This document shows, one piece after another, positions 23,180 to 33,854 of a DNA stretch of 49,361 nucleotides. Position 1 is the stretch's first letter. Each line of letters opens with the position of its first letter. This DNA is from Deinococci bacterium (GTDB taxonomy: Bacteria; Deinococcota; Deinococci; Deinococcales; Trueperaceae). A program made the translations under genes and the position numbers. The stretch is taken from positions 1-49,361 of the forward strand of contig JASBRS010000007.1 in assembly GCA_030149325.1 (NCBI GenBank), in the 5' to 3' direction. The notes under the pieces are model-generated. The model saw nothing but the letters and a program-made list of their open reading frames with translations, had not been told where the DNA came from and made no database searches.

Positions 23180-24364
23180 ATGTCGCCCCGCGTACGCCGG
23201 GCCGACCGGAGCGACCTGGCGGCGCTGGAGGCGCTCGAGCGCAGCTTCCCCGGGGACCGCCTGCAGCGCGCCTCGCTGGCCCGTCTGCTGGGGCGCGAGA
23301 GCGCCGAGCTGTGGGTGGCCGAGGTCGACGGTGAGGTCGTCGGCGACGCCGTGGTGCTGTTCCGCAAGGGCTTCGCGTCGGCGCGGCTGTACTCGCTGGT
23401 GGTGTCGCCGGAGAGCCGCGGCCGCGGGGTGGCGCGCGCGCTCCTGGCGCGGGCCGAGGAGGGTGCGCGGGAGCGCGGCGCGGTGTCGATGCGGCTCGAG
23501 GTCCGGGCCGACAACGACGCCGCCATCGCGCTCTACCGCAAGGTCGGCTACGAGGTGGTGGGCACCACCGCCGACTACTACCAGGACCACTCCGAGGCGC
23601 TGCGGATGCTCAAGCGCTTCGCCGGCGGCGGCGCCACCGTGTTGGGCGTGCCCTACTACGCCCAGACGCTCGACTTCACCTGTGGGCCGGCCTCGCTGAT
23701 GATGGCGATGCGCTACCACGGCTACCCGGTGCCGTTCGAGCGCTGGCTCGAGCTCGCCATCTGGCGCGAGGCGACCACCATCTTCATGCTCTCCGGCCAC
23801 GGCGGTTGCAGCGCCCACGGGCTGGCCGTGGCGGCGCTGCGGCGCGGCTTCCGCGCCACCGTGGTGACCCGCGACGCGGAGGTGCCGTTCCTCGACTCGG
23901 TGCGCTCGGAGGACAAGAAGGACGTGCTGCGCATCGCCCACCAGACCTTCGCGCGCGATCTCGAGGACCTCGGCGGCCGCGCGCTGCTGCGCGACTTCGA
24001 CGACAACGACGTGGTCGATGCGGTCGAGCGCGGCGCGCTGCCGCTGGTGCTGCTGTCGGGCTACCGGCTGTACGCCGAGAAGGTGCCGCACTGGGTGGTG
24101 ATCACCGGCTTCGACGACGATCACCTCTACCTGCACGATCCCTACATCCCCGACGGCGCCGGTCGTGCCGACAGCGTCCACCTGCCGCTCCGGCGCGACG
24201 CCTTCGAGGCGGTCAGCCGCTTCGGGCGGCGCCGGCACCGCTCGATGGTGCTGGTGGAGCGCTGGGGGAGCGTCAGCCGTCGCCCGCAGGGGGAGCGTCC
24301 TCACCCGCAGGGTGAGCGTCCTCACCCACAGGGTGAGCGTCCTCGCCGGCAAGGTAGCGGATGA
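23180..24364 (+). CDS. GNAT acetyltransferase fused to a C39-like cysteine peptidase
   Basis: A 394-aa two-domain protein. Residues 1-145 form a RimI-like GNAT domain with the acetyl-CoA loop SRGRGVARAL (79-88) and ALYRKVGYEVVG. Residues 155-360 look like a papain-fold C39-type peptidase: Cys168 in FTCGPASLMM, His304 in PHWVVITGF and Asp320 in YLHDPY form a likely triad. The last 25 residues repeat GERPHPQ. ATG 23180 is chosen because the GNAT fold begins at once and GGGGA precedes it; GTG 23126 and ATG 23099 are alternatives. Proteins with this fusion are known next to RLAN/RimK-type ATP-grasp ligases in predicted peptide-maturation systems, as here on the facing strand. Substrate unknown. 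Its 3' end overlaps the ligase gene by 92 bp. Confidence 0.88.
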   Translation: MSPRVRRADRSDLAALEALERSFPGDRLQRASLARLLGRESAELWVAEVDGEVVGDAVVLFRKGFASARLYSLVVSPESRGRGVARALLARAEEGARERGAVSMRLEVRADNDAAIALYRKVGYEVVGTTADYYQDHSEALRMLKRFAGGGATVLGVPYYAQTLDFTCGPASLMMAMRYHGYPVPFERWLELAIWREATTIFMLSGHGGCSAHGLAVAALRRGFRATVVTRDAEVPFLDSVRSEDKKDVLRIAHQTFARDLEDLGGRALLRDFDDNDVVDAVERGALPLVLLSGYRLYAEKVPHWVVITGFDDDHLYLHDPYIPDGAGRADSVHLPLRRDAFEAVSRFGRRRHRSMVLVERWGSVSRRPQGERPHPQGERPHPQGERPRRQGSG

Positions 24365-25211
24365 TGGCCTCGTAGATGTCGGGGTCGGCCTGGTCCTCCT
24401 CGCCGGCCGCGATGGTGGGGTTGTCGTTGACCTCGATGACGTAGAACTCGCCGTCGATCTCCTTGAGGTCGATGCCGTAGAGGCTGCCTCCGATGGCATT
24501 GGCGGCCGCCAACGCCACCTCGACCAGGCGGGGGTCGGCGCCGTCCCTGGGTACGCCCTCGACGGTGGCCCAATCGCCGGCTTCGCTGCGGTCCATGGTG
24601 CGCCAGCCCTGCGCGGCGAAGCGGTAGCGCACCACCGCCAGCACCCGGCCCGCCAGCGTGATGACGCGCCAGTCGAAATCGCTGGGGAGGTACTGCTGGA
24701 TCACCAGCCGGTCGGCGCGGCGGAGGAAGCGCCGGCCCACCTTCTGGAACGCTTCGGGGGTGGCCACCTTGTCGACGTAGAGGCTGAAGCTGGAGTTGGG
24801 CGCCTTGAGCACCAGCGGTGCGCCGAGCTCGTCGAACAGCCGCTCGGCGGTGGCCTCGGAGAGCTCGTCGTCGCCCAGGAAGCGCGTGACCGGGATCGGC
24901 ACGCCCTCGCGCTCGAGCCGCGCGTACATGTTGACCTTGTCGCAGCAGATGCGGATCGACTCCGACTGGTCGAGCACGCGAATGCCCAGCATTTCGGCGG
25001 TGCGGGCCACCACGTAGCTGGTGTTGAGCGGGTCGGTGAGGGCGCGGATGAGGACGCCGTCGTAGTTGCGAAGGTACTTCAGCTCGTCCTTGAACAGGAA
25101 GTCGAGCTCGTGCCCGAGCTCGAAGGCCGCCAGGCGGAAGTTGGTCAGCGCCGTGAGCTCCACCGACGAGCGGATGGTGTAGCGCTCGGCGAAGATGGCT
25201 AGGCGTGCCAT
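24273..25211 (-). CDS. RimK-like ATP-grasp ligase
   Basis: Probably joins an amino acid to a carboxylate using ATP, as RimK adds glutamate to ribosomal protein S6. The 312-aa product has the ATP-grasp fold: nucleotide-binding Lys in CCDKVNMYARL (92) and LVLKAPNSSFS (136), and metal ligands Asp248, Glu260 and Asn262 in YGIDLKEIDG and YVIEVNDNPTI. ATG 25211 overlaps the end of the upstream RLAN gene by 13 bp. In many bacteria RLAN and this ligase are one polypeptide; here they are split. The C-terminal 23 residues repeat GEDAHPV/A and come from the same 21-bp DNA repeat that encodes the tail of the convergent peptidase. Substrate unknown. Confidence 0.88.
   Translation of the reverse strand: MARLAIFAERYTIRSSVELTALTNFRLAAFELGHELDFLFKDELKYLRNYDGVLIRALTDPLNTSYVVARTAEMLGIRVLDQSESIRICCDKVNMYARLEREGVPIPVTRFLGDDELSEATAERLFDELGAPLVLKAPNSSFSLYVDKVATPEAFQKVGRRFLRRADRLVIQQYLPSDFDWRVITLAGRVLAVVRYRFAAQGWRTMDRSEAGDWATVEGVPRDGADPRLVEVALAAANAIGGSLYGIDLKEIDGEFYVIEVNDNPTIAAGEEDQADPDIYEAIIRYLAGEDAHPVGEDAHPAGEDAPPAGDG
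24283..24345. repeat. 21-bp tandem repeat coding on both strands
   Basis: Three adjacent 21-bp units, the second being CCCGCAGGGTGAGCGTCCTC plus A, with one to three changes among copies. They sit in the overlap of two convergent genes. Plus strand: PQGERPH units of the GNAT-peptidase. Minus strand: GEDAHPV-type units of the ATP-grasp ligase. The unit is a multiple of three, so copy-number changes keep both frames. Confidence 0.9.
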
Positions 25212-25837
25212 GTGCCCAGCTCCTCGACCAGGGCTCGCTCGTCGGGGACGAGGTCCTTCCACGGCAGCGGCATGATGGCGGACAGCAGGTAGGCGCGGGC
25301 CGTGACGATGACGCGTACCCGTGCCAGCGGCAGCCGGAAGGCGGCGAACACCGCCTCGGCGAAGGCCTGGTACTCGGGCACCAGCGTGCGCCCGAGGACG
25401 CATCGCACCACGTCGATGCGGTAGTCCTCCGGCAGCTCCTGGCACAGCACGGCGTACTTGCCGGTGTAGGTGAGCCCCTTGCGCCGGGCCTCCAGGGCGT
25501 CGGCGTCGACGAGCAGCTCCCCCTTGCTGGAGAAGGGGTTGACCGGGTAGGCCATCATCGGCGGTGCCGGGAAGCGACTGGTGGCGATGTGGAAGGTGGG
25601 GACCCCGAGCCCCGCCAGCCGCGCCTTCTCCATGGCGATCGGCACCACGTAGGCGTCGAGGGCGTCGGCGGGCGTGGGGATGAGGCGGAGGCCGGCCAGC
25701 TCGCCGTCGAGCGAAGCGTAGTAGCCGCGTGTCAGGTAGCTGTAGTCGCCGTCGAGGTTCGCGAGATCGGCCTCGACAGGGCCGGCGCCGGGCCCGAAGC
25801 GTTCCGGGTCCAGCGCCAGCCTCAGGGGGGCGGTCAT
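25199..25837 (-). CDS. RLAN-domain protein (RimK-like ATP-grasp N-terminal domain), stand-alone
   Basis: A 212-aa protein matching by eye the RLAN domain that is usually fused in front of RimK-like ligases: residues 24-50 read ADLANLDGDYSYLTRGYYAS, then a segment ending GLRLIPTPADALDAY, close to the family pattern of NL-x-YxYLxxGYYxSL followed by a strand and IP. The second half (YPVNPFSSKGELLVD, LCQELPEDYRIDVVRC) is less familiar and may contact the ligase. RLAN proteins have no proven function; substrate-peptide recognition has been proposed. ATG 25837 lies five bases after the pgk stop, and the 3' end overlaps the ligase gene by 13 bp, so gap, pgk, RLAN and ligase form one likely operon. 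Confidence 0.75.
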   Translation of the reverse strand: MTAPLRLALDPERFGPGAGPVEADLANLDGDYSYLTRGYYASLDGELAGLRLIPTPADALDAYVVPIAMEKARLAGLGVPTFHIATSRFPAPPMMAYPVNPFSSKGELLVDADALEARRKGLTYTGKYAVLCQELPEDYRIDVVRCVLGRTLVPEYQAFAEAVFAAFRLPLARVRVIVTARAYLLSAIMPLPWKDLVPDERALVEELGTWHA

Positions 25838-25842
25838 GGGCT

Positions 25843-27021
25843 TCAGCCCTCCAGGGCGGCGACCCCGGGGAGCGTCCTGCCTTCCAGGAACTCGAGGGCG
25901 GCGCCGCCCCCGGTGGAGATGTGGCCGATGCGGTCGGCGAGCCCGCTGGCGTTGACGGCGGCCACGGAGTCGCCGCCCCCGACCACGGTGAAGGCCGGCA
26001 GCTCGGCCACCGTCTTCGCCAGGGCGGCGGTGCCGGCGTCGAAGGGGGGCGTCTCGAAGACGCCCAGCGGTCCGTTCCAGAACACCGTACGCGTGCCCTC
26101 GAGGGCTTCGCGGAAGGCGGCGACCGCCTGGGGTCCGACGTCGAGGCCCATCATGCCGTCGGGGATGGCGTCGGAGGGGTGCACCTCGGTGGCCACGCCG
26201 GCGCGCAGCTCGCGCGCGCACACGCTGTCGACGGGCAGCACCACGCGCACGCCCGCCGCCTCGGCCGCGCGGAGCAGGTCGCGGGCGGTGTCGAGCTGAT
26301 CCTCCTCGACCAGGGAGGCGCCGGTCGAGCCGCCCTGGGCCGCGAAGAAGGTGTAGGCCATGGCGCCCCCGATCAGGATGCGGTCGGCCACCTTCAGCAG
26401 GCTCGACAGCACGCCGATCTTGTCCGACACCTTGGCCCCGCCGAGGATCACCGCGAAGGGGCGCTCCGGCCGTTCGAGCAGGCGCGACAGCGCCCGCAGC
26501 TCCTGCTCCAGCAGGTGGCCCGCCGCCGACGGCAGCAGCCGCGCCACGCCCTCGGTGCTGGCGTGGGCGCGGTGGGCCGAGCCGAAGGCGTCGTCGACGT
26601 AGAGGTCGGCGTAGCCGGCGAGGATGCGGGCGAGCTGGGGGTCGTTCTTGGTCTCGCGGGGGTCGAAGCGGGTGTTCTCGAGCAGCGTGACGCTGCCGTG
26701 GGGAGCGTCGGCCACGAAGGCCTGCTGCTCCTGCGAGCCGGGGCCGTCGCAGGCGAGGTAGCGCACGTTGCGCCCCAGCAGCTCCTCGAGCCGCGTGGCG
26801 ACGGGCCGCAGCCGGGCCCCCTCCTCGACGCCCTTGGGGCGTCCCAGATGGCTCATCAGCACCAGCGTGGCGCCGCGGGAGGCGAGCGCCTCCAGCGTGG
26901 GCAGCGCCGCCCGGATGCGGGTGTCGTCGACGACCTGCCCGTCCCGGATGGGGACGTTGAAGTCCACCCGAACCAGGACGCGCTTGTCCTTGACGTCGAG
27001 GTCCTCGAGGGTCCTGAACAT
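25843..27021 (-). CDS. pgk: Phosphoglycerate kinase
   Basis: Transfers phosphate from 1,3-bisphosphoglycerate to ADP in glycolysis. The 392-aa length is standard. ATG 27021 is preceded by AGGAG. Motifs: [11 protein letters not shown] at the substrate site, [39 protein letters not shown], and the nucleotide-site [11 protein letters not shown] and [12 protein letters not shown]. It follows gap after 76 bp with a hairpin between, and precedes the RLAN gene by five bases, an unusual partner for a glycolytic gene. Confidence 0.96.
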
Positions 27022-27097: not shown

Positions 27098-28228
<1,131 letters not shown>

Positions 28229-31200
28229 TCAGCTCCTCCTCAGGGCGATCCCGAGGCGCTCGCCCTCGAGGTCGTGCTCCTCCCGGTGCGCCTCGCCCTC
28301 GAGCGGCCCCGTGCGCAGCTCGGTGGCCAGCACCTCGGCGGCGATGGCATCGGCGTGGTCCTCGAGCACGGCCGCCAGGACGCCGCCGGCGGCGAGCCCC
28401 AGCTCGATGGTGTCGGACACCTCCAGGCCGGCGTTCTTGCGGGCGTTCTGGACCAGGCGGACCACGTCCCGCGCCAGCCCCTCGCGGATCAGCGCGTCGT
28501 CGAGGGTGGTGTTGAGGGCGGCCAGGTAGCCGCGCTCCTCCACGGCCGCGAAGCCCTCGGGGCTGCGCGCGTCGAGCAGCACGTCGTCGGGCCCCAGCTC
28601 CACCTCGCCGCCGTCGAGCGCGACGGTGAGGGTGCGCCCCTCGCGCACCGTGGCCGCGACCTCACGGCCGTCCATGGCGTCGAGCGCCGCGCGCAGCTGC
28701 GGCACCAGGCGGCCCAGGCGCGGGCCCACGCGCGGCAGGTTGGGCTTGACCTGGTAGTCCACGAAGGCGTCGTGGACGCCGAGGTAACGCACGCGCTTGA
28801 CGTTGAGCTCGTCGAGGAGCTGGTCCTCGAGCCGCTGCACGCCCGCCAGCTCGTCCTCGCTGCGGAGCCGGACCAGCACCTCGGGGAGCGGCTGGCGTAC
28901 CTTCATGCCGGAGGCGGCGCGCGCCGCGCGGCCGAGCTCCACGACCCACATCAGCGCGCGCATGTCGCGCGTCAGGTCCTCGTCGAGCAGGCGCTCGTCG
29001 GCCACCGGCCAGGCGGCCAGGTGCACCGATTCGGGGGCGTCGCCGTCGAGCGAGCGCACCAGGTTCTGGTAGAGCTCCTCGGCCGTGAACGGCGCCATCG
29101 GAGCCATGAGGTGCGTCACCGTCACCAGCGCCTGGTGCAGGGTGGCGTAGGCGGCCGCCTTGTCGGCGTCCCCCTCGGAGCGCCAGAAGCGCCTGCGGTT
29201 GCGGCGCACGTACCAGTTCGACAGCTCGTCCACCACGAAGTCGCGGAGCGCGCGGCTGGCGGCGGTGGGGTCGTAGCCCTCGAGCTGACGGGTGACGTCG
29301 AGCACCAGCTGGCTCAGGCGTGAGAGCAACCAGCGATCGACGAGCGGGCGCTCGTGCGGAGCCGGGGCCGAGGCGAGCTCGGGACGATCGAGGTTGGCGT
29401 AGAGCACGAAGAAGCTGTAGGTGTTCCACAGGGTCAGGAAGAAGTCGCGCAGCGTCTCCTCGACCAGCCCGGCGCTGAAGCGCTTGGTCGCCTCGGGCGG
29501 CGACACGCTGTAAAGGTACCAGCGCAACGCGTCGGCCCCGGAGACGTCGAGCACGCTCCAGGGGTCGACCACGTTGCCCTTGGACTTCGACATCTTCTCA
29601 CCGCGCTCGTCGACGATATGCCCCAGCACGATGACGTTGCGGAAGGCGGGGCTGTCGGGCCGCAACGGCGCCAGCGGCCCGGGGGCGCGCCCCGCCTCGG
29701 CGTCGCCGCTGTCGGTCAGCAGGGTGGCGAGGGCGTGCAGGCTGTAGAACCAGCCGCGGGTCTGGTCGACGGCCTCGCAGATGTAGTCGGCGGGGAAGTT
29801 GTCGGCCAGGGCGGCGGCGGCCTCGGGGCTCGAGGCCTGGCCCTGGTAGTGCCACTGGGCGTAGGGCATGGCGCCCGACTCGAACCACACGTCGACGGTG
29901 TAGGGGACGCGCCGGAAGGTCTTGCCGTCGCGTTCGAAGGTGATGTCGTCGACGTAGGGTCGGTGGAGCTCGAGCCCCGACAGGTCGCGCCCGGTGAGCA
30001 CCGAGAGCTCCGCGACGCTGCCCACGCAGAGCTGCTCGCTGCCGTCCTCGCTGACCCAGATCGGCAGCGGCGCGCCCCAGAAGCGCTCGCGGCTGAGGGC
30101 CCAGTCGACGTTGTTCTCGAGCCACTTGCCGAAGCGCCCGGTGCGGATGTGGTCGGGGTACCAGTGGACCTTGTCGTTGTTGGCCAGCAGGCGGTCCTTG
30201 AGCGCGCTGGTGCGGATGTACCAGCTGCGCTTGGCGACGTTCATGAGCGGCGTGTCGTCGCGCCAGTTGAAGGGGTAGGCGTGCCGCAGGGTGCCCCGCT
30301 TCCACATCAGGCCGCGCTCCAGCAGGTCGGCGGCGATGGCGTCGTCGGCGTCCTTGAACCAGCGGCCGGCGTAGGGCCCTTCGCCGTCGGCGGCGTCGAG
30401 CGGCCTCACCGCCGGCAACACCCCACCGGTGAGGTCGACCGAGAACAGCGTCGGCAGCCCGTGCCGGCGGCCCTGCTCGAGGTCGCCGTAGGCGGGCGCC
30501 AGGTGGACGATGCCGGTGCCGTCCTCGAGGCTGACGAGGTCGTCGCTCACAACCCGGAAGGCGCCGGCGAGGTCCTCCCCGGGATCCGCCTGTCCGTGCA
30601 GGATGGGGTCGTAGTGGAGGCCCTCGAGCTCGGTCCCGACGACCCGGCGCAGCTCGCGGTGGGGCACGCCGTCGAACACCGTGCCGACGAGCTCGGCGGC
30701 CAGCCAGAAGAGCTCGGGCGCGCCGCCCTCGTCGGCGTGGCGCGGCGGCGCCTCGACCAGGGCGTACTCGGCGTCCGCCGCGACCGCCAGCCCGCTGTTG
30801 GCGGCCAGCGTCCAGGGCGTGGTGGTCCACGCCAGGAACCACACCGGCCGGCGCTCGTCCTCGGCCAGCAGCCCGCGCTCGACCAGCTCGGAACGCCGGG
30901 CCGGGAACTTGGGGAACACCGACGGGTCCTCGACGTCCTCGCGATAGCCCAGCGCAACCTCGTGCGAGGCCAGGGTGGTGTTGCTGCTGGGGCTGTGCCA
31001 GGTGGTCTTGTAGTCCTCGACCAGCAGGTCCCGCTCCCAGAGCTGCTTGAGCACCCACCAGCACGACTCGATGTAGTCGTTGGTGTAGGTGACGTAGGCG
31101 TCGTCCAGGTCGAGCCAGAAGCCGATGCGCTCGGTCATCCGGTTCCACTCCTGGATGTTGCTGAAGACGTCCTCGCGGCACAGCCGGTTGAAGCGCTCGA

Positions 31201-31537
31201 TGCCGTAGGCCTCCACCTGCTGCTTGTTGGTGAAGCCCAGGCGCTTCTCGATGGCGATCTCGACCGGCAGGCCGTGGGTGTCCCAGCCGCCCTTGCGCCC
31301 CACGCGGTAGCCCTGCATGGTCTTGAAGCGCGGGAAGAGGTCCTTGAAGGCGCGGCTGATGACGTGGTGCACGCCCGGCCGGCCGTTGGCCGTGGGCGGG
31401 CCCTCGTAGAAGACGTACGAGCCCTGCGGAGCGGGCTTGTCGAGGGCCTTGCGGAAGATGGCTCGGTCGCGCCAGAAGGCGATGACGCGCTCCTCGAGCT
31501 CAGGGAACTTCACGGTGGGCGGCACCTCACGGAACAC
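28229..31537 (-). CDS. ileS: Isoleucyl-tRNA synthetase, long type with GVHH signature
   Basis: Charges tRNA-Ile. At 1102 aa it is of the long kind (eukaryote-like, IleRS2) rather than the roughly 930-aa bacterial form. Start GTG 31537 has AGG seven bases upstream. The class I catalytic motif HxGH is replaced by GVHH (residues 55-58 in PPTANGRPGVHHVISRAF), with first and third positions exchanged; the KMSKS loop is intact (EKMSKSKGN, Lys648). Conserved features include GWDTHGLPVEI, WTTTPWTLAANSGLAV in the editing domain and VDVWFESGAMPYAQ. GxHH IleRS2 enzymes have been described as active and extremely resistant to mupirocin. A T-box leader precedes the gene. Confidence 0.95.
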   Translation of the reverse strand: MFREVPPTVKFPELEERVIAFWRDRAIFRKALDKPAPQGSYVFYEGPPTANGRPGVHHVISRAFKDLFPRFKTMQGYRVGRKGGWDTHGLPVEIAIEKRLGFTNKQQVEAYGIERFNRLCREDVFSNIQEWNRMTERIGFWLDLDDAYVTYTNDYIESCWWVLKQLWERDLLVEDYKTTWHSPSSNTTLASHEVALGYREDVEDPSVFPKFPARRSELVERGLLAEDERRPVWFLAWTTTPWTLAANSGLAVAADAEYALVEAPPRHADEGGAPELFWLAAELVGTVFDGVPHRELRRVVGTELEGLHYDPILHGQADPGEDLAGAFRVVSDDLVSLEDGTGIVHLAPAYGDLEQGRRHGLPTLFSVDLTGGVLPAVRPLDAADGEGPYAGRWFKDADDAIAADLLERGLMWKRGTLRHAYPFNWRDDTPLMNVAKRSWYIRTSALKDRLLANNDKVHWYPDHIRTGRFGKWLENNVDWALSRERFWGAPLPIWVSEDGSEQLCVGSVAELSVLTGRDLSGLELHRPYVDDITFERDGKTFRRVPYTVDVWFESGAMPYAQWHYQGQASSPEAAAALADNFPADYICEAVDQTRGWFYSLHALATLLTDSGDAEAGRAPGPLAPLRPDSPAFRNVIVLGHIVDERGEKMSKSKGNVVDPWSVLDVSGADALRWYLYSVSPPEATKRFSAGLVEETLRDFFLTLWNTYSFFVLYANLDRPELASAPAPHERPLVDRWLLSRLSQLVLDVTRQLEGYDPTAASRALRDFVVDELSNWYVRRNRRRFWRSEGDADKAAAYATLHQALVTVTHLMAPMAPFTAEELYQNLVRSLDGDAPESVHLAAWPVADERLLDEDLTRDMRALMWVVELGRAARAASGMKVRQPLPEVLVRLRSEDELAGVQRLEDQLLDELNVKRVRYLGVHDAFVDYQVKPNLPRVGPRLGRLVPQLRAALDAMDGREVAATVREGRTLTVALDGGEVELGPDDVLLDARSPEGFAAVEERGYLAALNTTLDDALIREGLARDVVRLVQNARKNAGLEVSDTIELGLAAGGVLAAVLEDHADAIAAEVLATELRTGPLEGEAHREEHDLEGERLGIALRRS

Positions 31538-31969: not shown

Positions 31970-32174
31970 CGTCAATACGCCGCTGCGTTTCCTCGCACAA
32001 CCTCTCTCGTGCGTCCTCGCGGTGCGCGTATGCTCCACGGACGCATGGGGTGCGACCCCGCCGAGCGGCGGACAACAGCGTTTCCTTGGATCACGATCGC
32101 GATCGAGCCGGCATCCCAGCGAGCCATGCGTCCTTCGCGTTCGAACGAGGGCGAACGCACGGAACGGAGATGGC
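31970..32174 (+). other. Non-coding region upstream of rho
   Basis: About 200 bp with no convincing gene. It contains a 12-bp palindrome CGATCGCGATCG (32094-32105) and GGAG six bases before the rho ATG. A TATGCT at about 32028 could be a -10 box, but no matching -35 was seen. A long leader would fit the known self-regulation of rho. Confidence 0.4.
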
Positions 32175-33854
32175 ATGAGCCCCAGAACCCGCAAGACAGC
32201 CGACGACAGCGGCGCCGCCGAGACGGCGGAGGCGCAGGAGCCGAAGACCCGCAAGCGCGGTCGGCCCCGCAAGCAGAGCGCGGAGACCGCCCCGGGTTCG
32301 GACGACGCCCAGGCCCCCGAGACCGTCGAGGCCAAGGCCCCGGCGCCGGAGGTGCCCACGTCCGACGGGGCCGACGCCGAGGCGCCGGCCGAGCGTGAGA
32401 GCGGCGGGCGCAGCGGTGGCCGCAAGGGGCGCAACGGCAAGAGCCGCTCGGGTCAGGGCGACGACAGTGGCAACGAGTCGGCGTCGGCGGGGGGCTCGAA
32501 CGAAGGTGGCAACGACGAAGGCGACACGCAGGAGGACCGCGGCGGCCGCTCGGGGCGCGGCGGCCGCAACCGTCGGGGGCGTTCCGGCGGCGGCCGCAAG
32601 GGCGGGCTGAACTTCCGCGATCTGCAGTCGAAGATCGTGCCGGAGCTGCACCTGCTGGCCAAGGAGGTCGGGCTCGAGGAGTACCGCCAGATGAGCAAGG
32701 ACGAGCTGGCGCTGGCCATCCTCGAGCGCTCGGCGGAGAGCGAGGGCCTCAAGCTCGTCCAGGGCTACCTCGAGATCTCGTCGGACGGCTACGGCTTCCT
32801 CCAGGAGTCGCTGCTCAAGCTCAGCTCGCGCAGCGTGATCGTGTCGGCCGGCCTGATCAAGCAGTTCAAGCTGCGCACCGGCGACTACATCCTGGGCAAG
32901 GCCCGGCGCCCGCGCGACAACGAGCGCTACGGCACCCTCATCCGGGTGGAGGCCGTGAACGGCGTCGATCCCTTCCAGGCCGCCAAGCGCCCGCGCTTCG
33001 ACGACCTGGTGCCCACCTTCCCGGAGCAGCGCATCACGCTGGAGACCACCCAGAACGAGCTCTCCGCGCGCGTGATCGACCTGCTCGCGCCCATCGGACG
33101 CGGTCAGCGCGGCCTGATCGTGGCGCCCCCCAAGGCCGGGAAGACGACGTTGCTCAAGAAGATCGCCAACTCGGTGGTCACCAACGAGGACGACATCAAG
33201 GTCATCGTGCTGTTGGTGGACGAACGGCCCGAGGAGGTCACCGACTTCCGCGAGTCGGTCCAGGGGGTCGAGGTCATCGCCAGCACCTTCGACGAGCCCC
33301 CCTCGAACCACATCCGGGTGGCCGAGTTCGTGCACGAGCGCGCCCGTCGCATCGTCGAGGAGGGCGGTCACGTGATGATCCTGCTCGACTCGATCACCCG
33401 TCTGGCGCGGGCCAACAACCTGGTCACGCCGGCGACCGGTCGGACCCTGTCGGGCGGCCTCGATTCCAACGCCCTGCACTGGCCCAAGCGCTTCCTGGGG
33501 GCGGCCCGCAACATCCGCGGCGGCGGCAGCCTGAGCATCCTCGCCACCGCCCTGGTCGAGACGGGCTCGCGCATGGACGACGTCATCTTCGAGGAGTTCA
33601 AGGGCACCGGCAACATGGAGCTGCACCTGAGCCGTCGCCTCGAGGAGCGCCGCGTGTTCCCGGCCATCGACATCCTCAAGTCCGGGACGCGCCGCGAGGA
33701 CCTGCTGCTGGGCGAGGCCATCCTGGCCAAGATGTGGCTGCTGCGCAAGGTCATCAGCGACATGGACGCGGCCGAGGCGATGGAGATGCTGCTGTCGCGG
33801 CTGTCGCGCACCAAGAGCAATGAGGAATTCCTCGCCACCCTCGGTCAAGGCTGA
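32175..33854 (+). CDS. rho: Transcription termination factor Rho with long N-terminal extension
   Basis: Hexameric RNA helicase that ends transcription. The 559-aa protein is about 140 residues longer than Escherichia coli Rho. The extra part (about residues 1-140) is low-complexity: an AT-hook-like KRGRPRK, Glu/Ala-rich acidic stretches, then Gly/Arg-rich runs such as RSGRGGRNRRGRSGGG, similar to the RNA-binding inserts of actinobacterial Rho. The core follows: Rho_N (LNFRDLQSKIVPELHLLAKE), the cold-shock-like RNA site (GYGFLQES), Walker A APPKAGKTT (about 316-325), Walker B VIVLLVDERPEEV and the R-loop region SGGLDSNALHWPKRFLGAAR. Many terminators in this window lack T-runs, consistent with heavy Rho use. 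Confidence 0.95.
   Translation: MSPRTRKTADDSGAAETAEAQEPKTRKRGRPRKQSAETAPGSDDAQAPETVEAKAPAPEVPTSDGADAEAPAERESGGRSGGRKGRNGKSRSGQGDDSGNESASAGGSNEGGNDEGDTQEDRGGRSGRGGRNRRGRSGGGRKGGLNFRDLQSKIVPELHLLAKEVGLEEYRQMSKDELALAILERSAESEGLKLVQGYLEISSDGYGFLQESLLKLSSRSVIVSAGLIKQFKLRTGDYILGKARRPRDNERYGTLIRVEAVNGVDPFQAAKRPRFDDLVPTFPEQRITLETTQNELSARVIDLLAPIGRGQRGLIVAPPKAGKTTLLKKIANSVVTNEDDIKVIVLLVDERPEEVTDFRESVQGVEVIASTFDEPPSNHIRVAEFVHERARRIVEEGGHVMILLDSITRLARANNLVTPATGRTLSGGLDSNALHWPKRFLGAARNIRGGGSLSILATALVETGSRMDDVIFEEFKGTGNMELHLSRRLEERRVFPAIDILKSGTRREDLLLGEAILAKMWLLRKVISDMDAAEAMEMLLSRLSRTKSNEEFLATLGQG

Follow-up and report, generated by a model that had tools for sequence, protein, structure and literature searches.

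The window analysed here, a stretch of 49,361 nucleotides from a bacterium of the family Trueperaceae, encodes on its minus strand a type 2 isoleucyl-tRNA synthetase (IleRS) with an editing loop two residues shorter than that of most aligned IleRS, the gap lying directly before a conserved aspartate. The same enzyme carries GVHH in place of the class I signature HXGH. We consider it likely that this single, probably housekeeping enzyme continues to hydrolyse Val-tRNA(Ile) in a compacted pocket, with mupirocin resistance and continued editing both being predictions from the sequence.

The ileS gene and its shortened editing loop

The open reading frame is uninterrupted and complete, with 1102 residues. 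Against the TIGR00392 ileS equivalog family it scored 854.9 bits, above the curated cut-off of 621.4, which places it among the IleRS, and it is predicted to charge tRNA(Ile) with isoleucine. Pfam domains comprise the class I catalytic domain (PF00133), the anticodon-binding domain (PF08264) and the C-terminal DUF5915 (PF19302). The latter, which we take to be a marker of type 2 IleRS, spans residues 905-1101, and no zinc-finger family was among the Pfam matches, so that the C-terminal part is of type 2. The SD3 of type 2 enzymes is described as having no zinc-binding motif (Brkic et al., PMC10485003). Also in the trees the assignment to type 2 was recovered, with the longest branch separating two cyanobacterial IleRS1 rows, used as outgroup, from all others (68 and 81 rows; half-branches of 3.47 and 3.62; no eukaryotic row included). 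The query is ~40% identical to P. megaterium IleRS2 compared with 25-26% to the IleRS1 of the same species. A comparison covering the best 80 of at least 592 candidates gave, as its nearest named relatives by sequence, two MAGs of the Trueperaceae (68% and 66%) and one from a cyanobacterium (60%). The overall pLDDT of the AlphaFold2 model is 93.9.

28229..31537, minus strand: ileS, type 2 isoleucyl-tRNA synthetase, 1102 aa, GTG start, stop included (TIGR00392 above cut-off; PF00133, PF08264, PF19302)
28880..29338, minus strand: anticodon-binding domain (PF08264; Pfam search)
28235..28825, minus strand: C-terminal DUF5915 domain (PF19302; Pfam search)
30290..30931, minus strand: CP1 editing (proofreading) domain, approximately residues 203-416 (alignment with T. 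thermophilus 1ile; matches to the editing-domain structures 1udz, 1ue0 and 1wk8; AlphaFold2)
30482..30520, minus strand: editing loop GTGIVHLAPAYG--D, residues 340-352, shortened by two residues between G351 and Asp352 (alignment of 135 rows)
30809..30829, minus strand: Thr-rich segment WTTTPWT of the editing domain, residues 237-243, intact (T238 and T243 unchanged across all 70 rows)
30371..30415, minus strand: insertion in the hairpin right after the editing loop, approximately residues 375-389 (alignment of 83 rows)

Within the editing domain, the query loop reads GTGIVHLAPAYG-D compared with, for example, GTGIVHQAPAFGAED in relatives, two residues being gone directly before the Asp. Across 135 aligned IleRS rows (rows, not distinct species), the loop from His345 to Asp352 was long in 92, short in 38 and not covered in five. 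Counted from the first Gly of GTG, the Asp stands at position 13 in the query and at position 15 in 92 of the 130 readable rows, the spacing of 15 being an observation on these rows rather than a published class Ia definition. Loop spacing is normal in the ValRS (GTGALKITPAHDPTD) and LeuRS (GTGAIMGVPAHDERD) of the source genome itself. The hairpin following the loop is 23-40 residues long in all 31 short-loop rows of Trueperaceae type, 15-17 in the 13 from Chloroflexota and 13-15 in all 39 long-loop rows. Since the Chloroflexota short-loop enzymes are devoid of the long hairpin, a short loop can occur without it.

According to section 32 of Cvetesic et al. 2016 (PMC4861432), the conserved regions of the editing domain were free of relevant substitutions or deletions in 334 IleRS, and the intact domain is used by these authors as an argument that all IleRS rely on editing. 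The short loop looks like an exception to this generalisation, as worded in that section. Within the literature searched, with subscription journals mostly outside its scope, we found neither a description of an IleRS with a shortened editing loop nor a paper combining Trueperaceae with isoleucyl-tRNA synthetase.

Among solved structures, T. thermophilus IleRS (1ile) was the best sequence match (E 9.6e-263) and has the same fold as the query model (Z 42.1, 4.9 A over 816 residues), but it differs in its canonical HVGH, its normal editing loop (GAED) and the presence of knuckle cysteines. Structurally, the query was closest to P. megaterium IleRS2 (8c8u; Z 44.1, 6.6 A over 1016 residues), with which it has the type 2 architecture in common along almost its whole length; the hyper-resistant HIGH-motif mutant of that enzyme (8c8w) matched with Z 43.5 and 5.2 A over 950 residues. 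The CPRCG/CWRC and CQACG/CACG sites of the T. thermophilus enzyme are presumably zinc knuckles, and all eight of their cysteines are absent from the query. These and a further replaced motif, all located by alignment, are:

30980..30994, minus strand: SPSSN replacing CPRCG, first half of zinc knuckle 1
30254..30268, minus strand: NWRDD replacing CWRC, second half of zinc knuckle 1
30041..30052, minus strand: SEDG replacing CQACG, first half of zinc knuckle 2
29924..29935, minus strand: ERDG replacing CACG, second half of zinc knuckle 2
29837..29851, minus strand: HYQGQ replacing HYPFE

At knuckle site 1, 34 readable family genomes retain no cysteine in 29 cases, one in a single case and four in 4 cases; this gradation suggests that the loss may have proceeded stepwise. 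Zinc loss was considered and rejected as a novelty, since many Bacteroidota rows and the AMHH relatives likewise have fewer knuckle cysteines or none. HYPFE is described as setting type 2 and eukaryotic IleRS apart (PMC4861432, section 21) and was treated by us as a marker of type 2, not as defining it. The query lacks it, and the exact motif occurs in only part of the rows (seven of the 31 short-loop rows of Trueperaceae type, all 13 short-loop rows from Chloroflexota and 28 of the 39 with a long loop), showing that HYPFE varies within type 2. As a separate observation, the Asp of DVWFDSG at residue 553 (29879-29881, minus strand) is changed to Glu in 27 of 31 short-loop rows compared with 2 of 39 long-loop rows.

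Distribution and history of the short loop

Of the 39 genomes of the family, 33 have the short editing loop and two (G021 and G003) the long one, while the loop was unread in four fragmented genomes. A DNA pattern of the short loop, run on the 111 genomes of the phylum, matched 33, every one of them in the family, while the reversed-pattern control matched none of the 111. Matches elsewhere, with a pattern that misses differently worded short loops, amounted to 2 of 63 genomes from the order of a Leptolyngbyaceae MAG (G111 known beforehand) and, as counts from sampled groups and not prevalences, to 4 of 385 genomes from the class of a Hyphomonadaceae MAG (Alphaproteobacteria; G112 and G113 known beforehand) and 13 of 101 Chloroflexota, the centre genome of the latter being without a match. 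None was found in six single genomes from other places. In all four alphaproteobacterial and all 13 Chloroflexota genomes checked, the short-loop enzyme is the only IleRS above the TIGR00392 cut-off, and it is likewise the only IleRS detected in the five short-loop family genomes checked for copies. The gene of one Chloroflexota genome (G566) is interrupted by TAG. Both short-loop cyanobacteria also carry a canonical IleRS1. In one of them (G515), the short-loop IleRS (L166, L174/L181) is found in two pieces ~2.7 Mb apart; a split intein was considered and rejected, because the N-terminal piece enters a run of N and another N run lies near the start of the other piece; the split is treated here as an assembly break, probably a scaffold misjoin. 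Concerning the two long-loop genomes of the family, the enzyme of G021 (L107) carries ALHH and is 56% identical to the query, and that of G003 (L127) carries HYGH and is 40% identical, both with a normal loop; these divergent IleRS suggest gene replacement or contamination.

In a whole-protein tree of 70 rows (31 short, 39 long), the short loop constitutes one clade, corresponding to one change. Addition of the 13 Chloroflexota rows yielded two short-loop groups with two changes forced by well-supported branches, namely a Trueperaceae-type group that includes Alphaproteobacteria and a cyanobacterium (support 99) and a Chloroflexota group (support 93). The same two groups appeared in the core-only tree. 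An editing-domain-only tree calculated with the loop and hairpin columns excluded united all short-loop rows into one group (support 90-92), and in one editing-domain tree the Chloroflexota rows did not form a clade of their own (two changes). L127 and L128 were dropped from these domain trees, and L197, with missing residues, from the editing trees. The disagreement between core and editing trees on the Chloroflexota short-loop enzymes (L187-L199) hints at an exchange of the editing domain. Whether the short-loop editing domain moved between lineages by intragenic recombination or the short loop arose twice, as opposed to one origin with the whole gene, is in our assessment an even call: the separation of Chloroflexota and Trueperaceae-type enzymes in the whole-protein and core trees, together with their union in the editing-only tree, speaks for exchange or two origins, whereas AU tests fail to reject any alternative (p 0.102 for the whole protein, 0.098 for the core, 0.078 for the editing domain) and the trees were flagged for uneven letter composition and long branches.

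Probable proofreading in a compacted pocket

In E. coli IleRS, Asp342 anchors the amino group of the substrate, and His333 and Thr246 reject the cognate product (PMC9023258). H345 and D352 of the query were equated with E. coli His333 and Asp342 via alignment with relatives and cyanobacterial IleRS1, not with the E. coli enzyme itself. Together with T238, T243 and N247, they are invariant in all 70 aligned rows, the query thus having the editing residues of class Ia, and the same five residues are kept in the Chloroflexota rows covering them (12 or 13 of 13). Given this invariance, editing probably persists in a compacted site. The site would keep its Thr-rich segment, its His and its anchoring Asp, with the Asp being reached via the shorter loop, and hydrolysis of Val-tRNA(Ile) would most likely continue. 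In the AlphaFold2 model (pLDDT 97 for the block 341-350 and 95 for the block 351-360), a helix of residues 353-358 begins right after D352, and in a long-loop control model D158 is the third residue of a helix of residues 156-165. Judged from this secondary structure, the Asp of the short loop would sit just before the following helix rather than inside its first turn.

The conservation of the domain was compared between both loop types. Out of 24 editing columns conserved to at least 90% in 36 long-loop rows, 21 stay at or above this level in 31 short-loop rows; G301, D339 and P348 are conserved in the former and fall below 90% in the latter. The corresponding comparison for the catalytic core gave 133 of 141 columns. 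The slope of editing-to-core divergence is 1.74 for short-loop rows compared with 1.66 for long-loop rows over the same core range and 1.58 for all long-loop pairs, values that allow at most a mild relaxation of editing. Constraint on the editing domain in short-loop rows is close to normal.

We regard it as unlikely that the shortened loop weakened or retuned post-transfer editing, with valine or some other near-cognate slipping through or the cognate product being spared in a different way. His345 and Asp352 are expected on opposite sides of the pocket, which a shorter link could narrow, and exchange of the Asp for Ala (D333A/D334A in SgIleRS/ScIleRS, type 2 or eukaryotic enzymes) cuts hydrolysis of Val-tRNA 10^4-fold (PMC4861432, section 26). 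The report of no relevant deletions in the 334 surveyed sequences and the steeper short-loop slope point in the same direction. This is countered by the invariance of the five editing residues, by the near-normal constraint on the domain and by the status of the short-loop enzyme as sole TIGR00392-passing IleRS in the alphaproteobacterial and Chloroflexota genomes checked. Equally doubtful, in our view, is the broader proposition that the short loop, added to the swapped signature, remodels IleRS quality control a second time in nature, having passed from phylum to phylum, possibly through exchange of the editing domain, and having altered the specificity or strength of the pocket. If true, these bacteria would live with a higher level of valine at isoleucine positions, or exclude other near-cognates, through their only IleRS. 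Continued hydrolysis of Val-tRNA(Ile) in a compacted pocket is the reading that we prefer.

The swapped signature, copy number and mupirocin

The initial annotation, which mentions neither the short editing loop nor the lost knuckle cysteines, had described GVHH in place of the signature, flanked by an intact PPTANG and accompanied by an intact KMSKS loop. Minus-strand translation and alignment bear this out:

31364..31375, minus strand: GVHH, swapped class I HXGH signature, residues 55-58 (translation, alignment; GxHH in 35 of 37 readable family genomes)
31382..31399, minus strand: PPTANG, residues 47-52, intact (translation, alignment)
29582..29596, minus strand: KMSKS, residues 648-652, intact (translation, alignment)

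G55-V56-H57-H58 stand in the context PPTANG-RP-GVHH-VISRAFKDLFPR, with the first and third residues of the signature swapped; Gly in first and His in third and fourth position correspond to the Gly/Ala-first pattern of GXHH IleRS2. The signature was readable in 37 of the 39 genomes of the family, comprising 35 GxHH (29 GVHH, 5 GIHH, 1 GLHH), one ALHH (G021) and one HYGH (G003), and GVHH is therefore neither a sequencing slip nor chance. In a set of 83 rows, mostly picked for nearness, G/AXHH was present in 76 of 82 readable rows. In the tree, L129, a row from the same order with the canonical HVGH, clusters with two GVHH rows (L109, L112), in line with the reversion described by Brkic et al. 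(PMC10485003).

That some type 2 IleRS carry GxHH and resist mupirocin, as further stated in the initial annotation, agrees with Brkic et al. 2023 (PMC10485003), who linked GXHH IleRS2 to mupirocin hyper-resistance. In their tree, G/AXHH was acquired at least twice and is found in 86 of 163 IleRS2, versus 77 with HXGH. The assignment of the enzyme to a special group thus stood as far as tree and motif identify a type 2 enzyme with GXHH, but not in the sense of a small group, considering these figures and the 76 of 82 relatives. The IleRS2 of D. radiodurans, with its natural ALHH, has a mupirocin Ki of 6600 uM (6.6 mM) and of 8.1 uM with HVGH, and introduction of GVHH into the T. thermophilus and P. 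megaterium IleRS2 increased the Ki to 35 uM and 460 uM, respectively (PMC10485003, Table 1). In the structures of the same study the third His occupies the place of the first, and modelling resulted in a clash with mupirocin. Extreme mupirocin resistance of the enzyme described here is a reasonable prediction. The query resembles the GXHH/AXHH IleRS2 of S. griseus and D. radiodurans (PMC10485003) in the swapped signature, intact KMSKS and type 2 architecture; beyond the description of that type, it has the shorter editing loop, the longer neighbouring hairpin, no knuckle cysteines and HYQGQ. The GVHH mutant of P. megaterium (PMC10485003) has the same motif as the query, but is engineered and has an editing loop of normal length. 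MupA and MupB, which belong to the IleRS family and are associated with resistance to mupirocin, are not matched at their cut-offs, the query scoring 668.5 and 708.8 bits versus 1900. As the GXHH kind is already described and tied to hyper-resistance (PMC10485003), GVHH alone is ordinary; a known variant was read correctly here, and it adds a family, not a principle.

A second, canonical ileS, which by the initial annotation would have spoken against its reading if it were the main enzyme, was not found in the source assembly (3.04 Mb, 102 contigs, 96.79% complete) by whole-genome protein and TIGR00392 searches, the other matches being ValRS- or LeuRS-like. As the sole IleRS found in a 96.8% complete genome, the GVHH enzyme is taken as the housekeeping enzyme and is probably the single one of this bacterium. 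Seven family genomes (G000, the source genome, as well as G003, G007, G012, G013, G016 and G021) each gave one TIGR00392 match above cut-off, and all 39 gave one IleRS match each at E <= 1e-100, a threshold that an IleRS1 need not pass. A dedicated resistance copy alongside a normal ileS is highly improbable: such pairs do occur in a small Bacillaceae group (PMC10485003), and the two cyanobacterial genomes combine canonical IleRS1 with a short-loop IleRS, one of the latter genes being interrupted at a scaffold gap, but the seven family genomes searched with TIGR00392, the source genome among them, speak for one enzyme each. No near relative of the query was found in the plasmid collection; its 159 matching records at E <= 1e-80 are all below 60% identity, with the best of the 12 listed being 42-43% identical. 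Eight neighbouring ORFs checked against Pfam are ordinary and gave no hint of a mobile resistance element:

27101-28129, minus strand: glyceraldehyde-3-phosphate dehydrogenase, downstream of ileS (Pfam)
24276-26221, minus strand: two RimK-like ATP-grasp ORFs beyond glyceraldehyde-3-phosphate dehydrogenase (PF08443; PF14401 in the adjacent ORF)

Upstream of ileS, the opposite strand encodes Rho, a LysM-M23 peptidase, a response-regulator receiver protein, an Rrf2 regulator and a class V aminotransferase. Ahead of its Rho_N domain, Rho (32025-33854, plus strand) carries roughly 150-200 additional N-terminal residues rich in Arg, Gly and Ser, the length varying with the choice of start codon.

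On its own, the GVHH motif contributes one more family to a known resistance mechanism, and the editing loop is the more important of the two features. With residues lost next to the essential Asp in the sole IleRS detected, as in the 17 alphaproteobacterial and Chloroflexota genomes and the five short-loop family genomes checked for copies, the loop provides a natural test of how much change of the pocket is tolerated before proofreading fails.
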